A stretch of DNA of 64,000 nt, taken from contig DS990592.1 of NCBI GenBank assembly GCA_000155695.1, forward strand, positions 4,229,820 through 4,293,819, given 5' to 3'. The translations under genes and the position numbers were made by a program. The stretch is from Verrucomicrobiia bacterium DG1235 (GTDB taxonomy: Bacteria > Verrucomicrobiota > Verrucomicrobiia > Opitutales > Opitutaceae). The notes beneath the pieces were generated by a model that saw nothing but the letters and a program-made list of their open reading frames with translations, was not told where the DNA came from and made no database searches. Positions 34,079 through 35,100 of the stretch are shown in pieces (the stretch's first letter is position 1; the number at the start of each line of letters is the position of its first letter).

Positions 34079-34250
34079 CGGTAGTTAAGAGGAAGCAGTA
34101 TGCATCGCATACGACGCTGCCATTGCAAACTCGAATGCGCCGAGGAGACATCGCTTCGGATTTCGTCCGTGGGAAGTGGCGCAATCTGATGTCTAACGTT
34201 AGACATCAGATTGCGCTTATTGGGGATGGAGGTTTGCGCGGAGGGAGAGG
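34079..34250. other. Gap between the PaaX-like gene and the prenyl synthase
   Basis: This 172-bp stretch contains palindrome copy 1 (34179-34216) and otherwise nothing I recognise. There is no T-tract after the palindrome on either strand. Confidence 0.6.
34179..34216. repeat. 38-bp perfect palindrome, copy 1
   Basis: The half GCGCAATCTGATGTCTAAC (34179-34197) is followed directly by its exact reverse complement (34198-34216), with the centre at TAAC|GTTA. It lies 34 bp past the stop of the PaaX-like gene. A copy with two changed positions per half lies at 35063-35100. It has no loop in DNA; as RNA it would make a stem of about 17 bp. It is not a standard terminator because no T-tract follows. 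Confidence 0.97.
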
Positions 34251-35033
34251 TCAGGAGCAGAGAATGTCTCGCCAGGGGCTAAAGGCAGAGCGGCGTTTTT
34301 GCCAACAGAGCTGGCCTTGGTAGTTTGCTGGATGCAGGGGAGATGGGAGGAGTGGGTCTGAGCTCATCACAGATCGCCAGAGTTCGGATTCGTCTCGAAA
34401 CCATGCTGCGAAATCCTGTGATGAGAACTGCGCAGCAATTGGGGTTCGGTTTTCGAGAAAGCGCAGGTATTCCTCCTGGAGGTTGGCGATGTGAGTAAAA
34501 TCCCAAGCCTTTTCGACGATGAGGGCGTCGGTCAGGTTTCCGAGTGGTTTGCCTTCGATGAAAATTACCGAGCGAGGATCTATGTTCAGCGAACCGAGTT
34601 GCGTTGACCAATCTTCGTACTTGCGGGCAGTGAGCCAGAGGCTGCCTTGCAGGTGCCCGAATTTGTTTTCCTGAAGCCAGCGATTGAGTCGCTTTCTCTC
34701 TTTTCGCTCATCTGCCGGTAGATCGAATGTCAGGGTTCGCCAGTTGCCGGACCAGTCTTGGTTCCAGAAACTAGTGGGATCGATTGATTCGGGAAGAGAG
34801 GCTTTGCCAGTCTGGGTGAGTTGTGGGACCCATGCTATTTTTTCGCTGCTATCTTGCCAGCTGATCAGCCCTTTCTCTCTCATAGACCTCATGTGGCGGA
34901 GGTAGGAGGATGACTTTTCCCAACCGCCGAACGAATTTAGGGATGAGTGCAGACGGTGGGCGTTGGCGAAGGCGTCGAGGCCGGTCATGAAGACCAATTC
35001 CAGTATGTCTTTGGATTTCTGGCTCAGTGTCAT
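34251..35033 (-). CDS. PaaX-family protein flanked by palindromes
   Basis: The 260-residue protein has the three-part PaaX layout: an N-terminal winged helix (about residues 1-85, with SYLRHMRSMREKGLISW), a Cas2-like ferredoxin-fold domain (about 93-170, WRTLTFDLPADERKERKRL and FGHLQGSLWLTARKYEDW), and the PaaX C-terminal part (WDFTHIANLQEEYLRFL; SDPLLPSPLHPANYQGQ). PaaX represses phenylacetate catabolism in enterobacteria, but no such genes are nearby. It lies 30 bp from one 38-bp palindrome and 34 bp from another, and a 14-bp palindrome covers its start codon. Its role here, regulator or part of a palindrome-associated element, is not known. Confidence 0.8.
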   Translation of the reverse strand: MTLSQKSKDILELVFMTGLDAFANAHRLHSSLNSFGGWEKSSSYLRHMRSMREKGLISWQDSSEKIAWVPQLTQTGKASLPESIDPTSFWNQDWSGNWRTLTFDLPADERKERKRLNRWLQENKFGHLQGSLWLTARKYEDWSTQLGSLNIDPRSVIFIEGKPLGNLTDALIVEKAWDFTHIANLQEEYLRFLENRTPIAAQFSSQDFAAWFRDESELWRSVMSSDPLLPSPLHPANYQGQLCWQKRRSAFSPWRDILCS

Positions 35034-35043
35034 TCCGGAATGA
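35030..35043. promoter_or_regulatory. 14-bp palindrome over the PaaX-like start codon
   Basis: TCATTCCGGAATGA is a perfect palindrome that includes the start codon (ATG reading leftward from 35033). Such a site would let a bound protein block translation start or early transcription. Binding is not shown. Confidence 0.5.
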
Positions 35044-35062
35044 AACGGGAACTAGGGGTTTG

Positions 35063-35100
35063 GCGCAATCCAATGTCTAACGTTAGACATTGGATTGCGC
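35063..35100. repeat. 38-bp perfect palindrome, copy 2
   Basis: The half GCGCAATCCAATGTCTAAC (35063-35081) is followed directly by its exact reverse complement (35082-35100). It lies 29 bp upstream of the PaaX-like start. Compared with copy 1, the pair TG in the left arm is CA, and the right arm carries the matching change, so the dyad stays perfect. Confidence 0.97.

Follow-up and report, generated by a model that had tools for sequence, protein, structure and literature searches.

We describe a family of PaaX-like genes in Verrucomicrobiota that are bracketed by long palindromes, each gene by a sequence of its own, with further copies of the palindrome dispersed as solo sites through some of the same genomes. 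The arrangement looks like an undescribed counterpart of the REP/RAYT repeat systems of bacteria, and full-text searches of an open-access library, in which subscription papers and preprints are mostly absent, yielded no published description of it. The point of departure was a 64,000-nucleotide stretch of DNA (the window) from the genome of a Pelagicoccus (G000; 5.78 Mb in 6 contigs, the main one of 5.51 Mb). Throughout, G labels denote genomes, L labels loci and S labels the numbered solo sites of G000.

An initial annotation of the window had reported a lone PaaX-type gene between two perfect 38-bp palindromes, each about 30 bp from an end of the coding sequence. The palindromes are indeed there, 34 bp beyond the stop codon and 29 bp ahead of the start codon, respectively (Table 1). 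They differ from each other at four positions, two per arm, and the changes are matched, leaving both perfect. DNA folding predicts a stable single-strand hairpin for the downstream bracket (-19 kcal/mol, z -9.54) as well as for the upstream one (-19.2 kcal/mol, z -9.68), and the 16-bp palindrome core occurs twice in the window, while two matches were reached in 0 of 100 shuffles (mean 0.09, allowing up to 3 mismatches). The PaaX-like gene has the gene for a KpsF-type isomerase on one side and that for a polyprenyl synthase on the other, the three sharing the minus strand, and the centre of its downstream bracket is about 119 bp ahead of the prenyl synthase start. Four surrounding genes were identified (prenyl synthase, KpsF-type isomerase, a LysM protein and an ECF-type sigma factor), and neither phenylacetate genes nor cas genes are among them.

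Table 1. Features of the bracketed PaaX-like gene in the window.
Feature	Position	Strand	Sequence or basis
Downstream bracket, 38-bp perfect palindrome, CTG variant	34179..34216		GCGCAATCTGATGTCTAAC / GTTAGACATCAGATTGCGC
Upstream bracket, 38-bp perfect palindrome, CCA variant	35063..35100		GCGCAATCCAATGTCTAAC / GTTAGACATTGGATTGCGC
PaaX-like gene, 260 aa	34251..35033	-	Pfam and AlphaFold model, nearest solved fold 8a39
Cas2-like PaaX_M domain, residues 92-162	34548..34760	-	Pfam PF20803, E 1.3e-13
Asp104 codon, just past the first strand of the Cas2-like domain	34722..34724	-	Invariant in 64/64; putative metal-site role

The PaaX-type identity of the protein and its Cas2-like middle domain, both proposed in the initial annotation, were upheld by domain searches and modelling. 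The PaaX_M match is above the Pfam cut-off, PaaX_C reaches 21.3 bits, slightly under its cut-off of 22, and the NCBIfam PaaX equivalog scores 41.2 bits, far below its cut-off of 264.55; the window protein is a member of the PaaX fold family outside the phenylacetate regulators as NCBIfam defines them. PaaX_M (21 of 21) and PaaX_C (16 of 21) are the only Pfam domains detected in 21 proteins at E 0.01. The layout comprises a helical N-terminal part, a Cas2-like middle and the PaaX C-terminal domain; in PaaX itself, the N-terminal part is a winged helix. With the AlphaFold model (mean pLDDT 84.7, from 21 sequences) as query, the best Foldseek matches were E. coli PaaX (8a39, E 2.4e-9) and 3kfw (E 2.6e-7), followed by the putative regulator 3l09 (E about 2e-3) and, later and weakly (E 0.046 and above), by Cas2 of Cas1-Cas2 complexes.

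Twelve residues are invariant in all 64 aligned proteins: W90, W94, W98, D104, R113, G126, Q129, S131, D226, P227, L229 and L233. Strand 98-103 of the model directly precedes D104, and in Cas2 the metal-binding Asp stands at the end of the first strand; on this correspondence we propose Asp104 as the metal-site residue of the Cas2-like domain. The alignment sets Gly of E. coli PaaX against D104 (an Asp follows two columns later), Leu against R113 and Ala against Q129; so aligned, this repressor apparently lacks the Cas2-position Asp. The protein 3kfw has Thr at D104 and Arg at Q129 and keeps R113. The DPLLP motif is conserved and common to the window family and E. coli PaaX. An HUH-like triplet occurs in 4 of the 64 proteins, there is no His among their columns conserved at 80% or more, and the best Tyr column reaches 61 of 64.

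Bracketing by palindromes recurs across Verrucomicrobiota. A protein search of the genus returned 18 PaaX-like genes in 6 of 8 genomes, many with long palindromes on both sides that are alike within a gene and unlike between genes, others with one palindrome or none at the threshold applied. A profile search of 372 genomes of the order, from 100 genera, found relatives in 17 genomes and 12 genera, and 20 named loci come from Pelagicoccus, other Opitutaceae, Verrucomicrobiaceae, Prosthecobacter and unclassified Verrucomicrobia. At the level of the phylum, the Pfam PaaX_M model matched in 75 of 383 genomes (61 above the cut-off), and many of the weak matches, of about 110-200 aa, are judging by size and score probably real CRISPR Cas2. 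Searches of plasmids, phages and viral contigs returned no relatives of the PaaX-like gene.

The bracketing was then quantified by taking the best palindrome within 260 bp of each gene and calling it strong at a score of at least 9. Among 65 rows, which count L198 and L068, duplicates of each other, separately, 53 have a strong palindrome on at least one side and 12 have none; in 29 both sides carry one, and taken singly the upstream side does so in 43 of 64 and the downstream side in 39 of 64. None of 384 dinucleotide shuffles reached that score. Since the threshold had been fixed after part of the data was seen, 20 further PaaX_M genes, a selection of those above the cut-off and without an earlier locus, were taken unseen: 18 have a strong palindrome on either side, 13 on both and 2 on neither, and 3 of 120 real control windows from their loci reached score 9. 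Palindromes scoring at least 12 are rare elsewhere: 20 loci of 6.8-13 kb contain just 2 that are not brackets (a set in which L217 and L218 overlap L056 and L058, and L209 is without a PaaX-like gene).

Individual loci show variations on the arrangement. The genome with the label G640 has 10 PaaX_M genes by family search, and all 8 of those examined have a strong palindrome beside them, on one side or both, with a different sequence for each gene; in its clade a distance of 6-11 bp between the upstream palindrome and the start codon is frequent, as is overlap of the downstream palindrome with the stop codon. At L042 (G007:C23) the two brackets (175454-175489 and 176418-176453) are alike, with GCGCAA...TTGCGC ends and an AACGTT centre, and their inner arms pair at only 2-3 of 10 positions, an instance of bracketing without palindromy. 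Finally, L173, L176, L177 and L179 are PaaX-like genes with matching surroundings in four genomes, and at L179 the outer sequence of both brackets differs from that of the other three.

Each gene has its own palindrome. A comparison of brackets started from 84 genes, of which 63 had a usable bracket and 21 were dropped. Brackets of the same gene are identical at a fraction of 0.876 of positions (42 genes with both) and those of different genes at 0.363, so that the two brackets of a gene have changed in concert, and the similarity of palindromes tracks that of the proteins (Mantel r 0.50, with 0 of 2000 permutations as high). Along the 14 positions counted from the centre, the arms form Watson-Crick pairs in 49 to 63 of the 63 genes, with two to four common pair types. 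Counting leftwards from the centre, base two is a purine in all 63 and base three an A or C in 61.

The palindromes are also repeated where the gene is present. A degenerate pattern, searched in a draw of 372 genomes of the order that left out G002 and G006, matched 16 times in G000, 27 in G003, 34 in G004, 11 in G007 and 4 in G005, brackets included; these are the five Pelagicoccus of the draw with PaaX-like genes, and the pattern is repeated only there, while G001, which has no PaaX-like gene, gave 0. The remaining 366 genomes comprise 13 with one match, G163 with two and the rest with none, and in their matches the inner arms pair at 2-6 of 9-12 positions, compared with 7-11 of 10-12 in G003, G004 and G005 and 2-7 of 10 in G007, in each case among the matches listed. 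The reversed pattern gave a single match in 4 of 372 genomes. Palindromes that are common without any link to PaaX genes, the outcome that the initial annotation had named as fatal to its proposal, were thus largely not found. Moreover, 33 of 35 solo copies (all 16 of G000 and 19 of G003, G004, G005 and G007, taken among the matches listed) have their closest counterpart in a bracket from their own genome; L207 and L142 are the exceptions. Outside the genus, the palindrome of G371 occurs there 7 times at up to 3 mismatches, twice as a bracket and 5 times elsewhere, and a search of 11 other genomes found no copy. In G371 the bracket arms (L241, L242) read CCGCAATCCCAAAC... and four of the solo copies listed (L239, L240, L243, L244) read CGCCCAAAC...; the inner part is common to both and the outer part differs, as if the solo copies derived from a shorter core. 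Two imperfect palindromes of one type lie 357 bp apart at L215 (G007:C31:60-95 and 417-452), on a contig without a PaaX-like match in the genus protein search, and are perhaps a shortened unit.

G000 contains 18 palindromes in total, the 2 brackets and 16 solo copies; 17 have the exact 14-bp core, which is absent from 7 other genomes of the genus, and one has an altered core. Eleven of the 18 are identical over the full 38 bp, 2 have the CTG form, 13 are perfect palindromes, and some, such as L018 and L023, are half-changed. None of the 16 solo copies falls within a called gene, the calls coming from a simple codon-usage script that leaves large uncalled stretches at some sites (L017; at L026 the right neighbour is absent). 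Four solo copies lie between convergent genes, 5 between codirectional and 6 between divergent ones, and for 1 the two neighbours were not both called. The convergent share is 4 of the 15 sites with both neighbours called, against 4 of 31 window gaps longer than 60 bp, and the neighbours of these four include uvrB, recJ, a sodium symporter and a bile-acid-type transporter. We also observed, post hoc, that 14 of the 18 copies lie in 4.1-5.5 and 0-0.87 Mb of the main contig.

Comparison with related genomes shows that most sites come and go, and that at a few the place or gap persists while the sequence changes. At the site in the window the PaaX-like gene is present in G000, G003 and G007; in G004 it lies beside kpsF, with the prenyl synthase gene on another contig; and in G001, G002, G005 and G006 kpsF and the prenyl synthase gene adjoin directly without it. 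The upstream palindromes of the four occupied sites align on an AAC/GTT centre and differ in both arms. The initial annotation had held that a gene in the same place without palindromes would tell against the association: G003, G007 and G004 do have palindromes there, of other sequence, but in G007 and G004 a clear one is found upstream only, the downstream one not being clear, and the 12 rows mentioned above have no strong palindrome on either side.

The flanks of 10 of the 16 solo sites of G000 were searched in 7 relatives, and 27 site-by-relative pairs were obtained from six of the sites. In 21 pairs the relative retains both flanks, and one of these has a palindrome, S25 in G003, which aligns in position and belongs to the type of G003 itself. 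The other six pairs match on one flank only: G007 has a palindrome at S23, G004 a PaaX-like unit at S20, and four have neither. The S23 palindrome of G007 (L142, not assigned to a resident gene) stands before the same gene at a similar distance, with the other flank on another contig, and the aligner does not place the pair together. At S20 one and the same gene has next to its 3' end a whole PaaX-like unit in G004 (C85 near 43700; L039, L133) and a solo palindrome in G000 (L020), and the other flanks of the two genomes do not match. Hairpins of score 10-12.5 that lack this centre occur in G005 at S11 and in G004 and G002 at S23, and in S21 of G003, counted as pair 28, there is no palindrome of this kind but a hairpin of score 12 that resembles a terminator. 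Over the 28 comparisons, therefore, 2 relatives have a solo palindrome, 1 has a whole unit and 25 have neither, so that most G000 sites are palindrome-free in relatives, including those with PaaX-like genes.

Places shared between species are few. L206 (G004) and L213 (G005) are one locus, with palindromes in the same gene gap, each of its own type and not placed together by the aligner. A search for a regulon through common neighbours was unsuccessful: when 15 sampled loci were compared with the 16 of G000, 4 matching rows longer than 80 bp emerged from 3 locus pairs, none of which has both palindromes in the same gap. L199 and L214 have a neighbouring gene stretch in common, in inverted arrangement. 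Several PaaX-like units occupy the same conserved surroundings in different genomes or species, and the gene itself is thus not visibly hopping. Alignment revealed no clean empty sites or target duplications at S11, S13, S16, S23, S25 or the kpsF site, as the intergenic flanks are too diverged for a target duplication to be readable.

Among the systems considered, the comparison with REP palindromes around RAYT genes, first drawn in the initial annotation, fits best. On balance we favour a gene-plus-palindrome system that works like RAYT/REP with an unrelated protein, one that is probably a nuclease spreading or homogenising its own palindrome. As in RAYT/TnpA-REP units (REPtrons), a gene goes with cognate palindromes that have dispersed copies in the same genome, the repeat is specific to genome and gene, and the dispersed copies are extragenic (in Pelagicoccus and G371, with gene context from G000). 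RAYT genes persist without obvious hopping, and so does the PaaX-like gene. The two differ in that the PaaX-like proteins have a PaaX/Cas2 fold, without a conserved HUH motif or the His/Tyr pattern of Y1 transposases, and in that their palindromes are often perfect and loop-free. The HUH motif and a GTAG tag are features of known REP/RAYT systems (PMC8266576, PMC3733652); a GTAG or CGTC tag stands beside the palindrome in 1 of 35 Pelagicoccus copies (two of the 35 being brackets). PMC3733652 also reports CGTC-tagged REPs that have no associated transposase and whose spreading enzyme is not known; these share with the present palindromes dispersal with no known spreading enzyme, and differ in the CGTC tag, which is theirs.

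Other systems resemble the unit in part. Like the Cas2 of CRISPR adaptation, it has a ferredoxin-like domain with an Asp at the end of the first strand, with weak fold matches, but in the window protein this domain is central and belongs to a longer chain that also has the C-terminal domain of PaaX. IS200/IS605 elements carry hairpin structures at their ends and in this they are similar; the window unit, in contrast, has no HUH transposase and its ends are near-identical full palindromes.

In the RAYT/REP-like system that we favour, the PaaX-like protein would recognise its own palindrome, presented either as duplex or as extruded hairpin; the protein would probably be a dimer, with one N-terminal DNA-binding part for each arm. 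It would act through the Cas2-like domain with its invariant Asp104, Arg113, Gln129 and Ser131, the Asp104 site cutting or joining, and the outcome would be that palindromes are copied to new intergenic sites or that older copies are overwritten, either of which would keep one sequence among the copies in a genome. The gene would owe its persistence to being flanked by the very palindrome to which it is tuned, and template switching in the hairpin may help to keep the arms perfect, as the half-changed L018 and L023 suggest. More tentatively, and as a possibility that we would not call probable, the PaaX-like proteins of Verrucomicrobiota may be metal-dependent hairpin or cruciform nucleases that drive palindrome populations by intergenic insertion, perhaps at hairpin tips, and overwriting; insertion combined with overwriting of old copies would make gene and palindrome change together. 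Against the RAYT/REP-like reading count the lack of any insertion with clean borders at the sites aligned and a gene that is not visibly hopping; the S25 place and the L206/L213 gap, common to species pairs as conserved operators would be; nearest solved folds that are PaaX and putative regulators, with an Asp judged from alignments that show another one two columns away in E. coli PaaX; and the 12 of 65 and 2 of 20 genes without a strong palindrome, together with L042, whose inner arms hardly pair.

The main rival, which we consider unlikely though it deserves serious weight, is an autoregulated PaaX-type repressor with a regulon, in which the palindromes are operators, solo copies mark target genes, and co-evolution of repressor and operators makes the palindromes change along with the protein. 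The protein does have the whole-length fold of E. coli PaaX, with PaaX_M and PaaX_C domains and the DPLLP motif, the upstream bracket is close to the start codon, and similarity of palindromes follows that of proteins. The shared places (S25 in G000 and G003, a palindrome before the same gene at S23 in G000 and on one flank in G007, the gene gap common to G004 and G005) count for it as much as for the RAYT/REP-like reading. The 3' bracket of the window, too, could serve the prenyl synthase gene ahead of whose start it lies, which is how the initial annotation had framed its alternative of an autoregulator with a second operator. Binding sites known for the PaaX repressor lie in promoters, and its binding is relieved by an aryl-CoA; the palindromes, if they are sites of the putative PaaX-like DNA-binding protein, are not limited to promoters. 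Against the rival, 3' brackets exist as well, often over the stop codon, and the convergent solo sites, uvrB and recJ among their neighbours, are no scarcer than convergent gaps in the window. These two observations weaken a reading as operators only, and the second-operator alternative with it, which we nevertheless keep as the main rival. Nor is the identity of 11 of 18 G000 copies over 38 bp like the graded operators of a regulon, and most sites are palindrome-free in relatives, those with PaaX-like genes of their own included. The window family further differs from E. coli PaaX in its brackets on both sides, its dispersed copies, its score far below the equivalog cut-off, and its Asp104, Arg113 and Gln129, which are unmatched in the alignment.

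A role in chromosome organisation, where a dedicated protein binds dispersed palindromes and shapes the chromosome in the manner of MatP/matS or Noc, seems to us improbable: dispersed copies outside called genes and the apparent clustering of copies in G000, seen post hoc, would suit it, but the pattern matches range from 4 to 34 among species of one genus, a single genome can hold several bracketed families, and the palindrome sequence varies from species to species. Least probable of all are passive hairpins, terminators or mutational products beside a bystander gene, because, even if template switching turns imperfect palindromes perfect and so fits the matched arm changes and the half-changed L018 and L023, and the palindrome continues into the flanks in three copies, few palindromes reach score 12 other than beside the gene, and the likeness of solo copies to brackets and the co-variation of palindrome and protein require the protein.

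The best-studied REP palindromes are tied to a single enzyme family, the HUH transposases (RAYT). Here a family of another fold, annotated as transcription regulators, has much the same anatomy in many genera. The Cas2 fold serves in the formation of CRISPR memory; if the PaaX-like protein acts on its palindrome, it would add a new repeat-spreading activity on that fold. Were the nuclease reading true, REP-like replicating repeats would have a second, non-homologous origin, and some annotated PaaX regulators would be DNA-rearranging enzymes. Should the protein be a repressor instead, the family would offer dozens of natural protein-site pairs in which both partners have changed specificity over some 38 bp, a direct route to reading how recognition evolves.

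The flanks of the palindromes provide a lead on how new copies might arise. In 3 of 35 copies the flanks extend the palindrome by at least 5 bases, where 0.35 were expected and 19 of 5000 permutations reached as many; total flank complementarity is weak, being matched in 227 of 5000 permutations. Insertion into hairpin tips would leave such a trace, and we take it as a lead only. The centre of the palindrome, GTCTAAC/GTTAGAC, resembles the R boxes of integron attC sites; it was rejected as an attC site on sequence grounds, the motif being at the centre and not at the outer ends. Known structured RNA was likewise discarded, an Rfam search over 9 loci of solo sites yielding one tRNA only. Two solo palindromes have short tandem repeats to their right, with a unit like CTCGTTTGTCCGGCTAGG in L014 and GGTT in L025.
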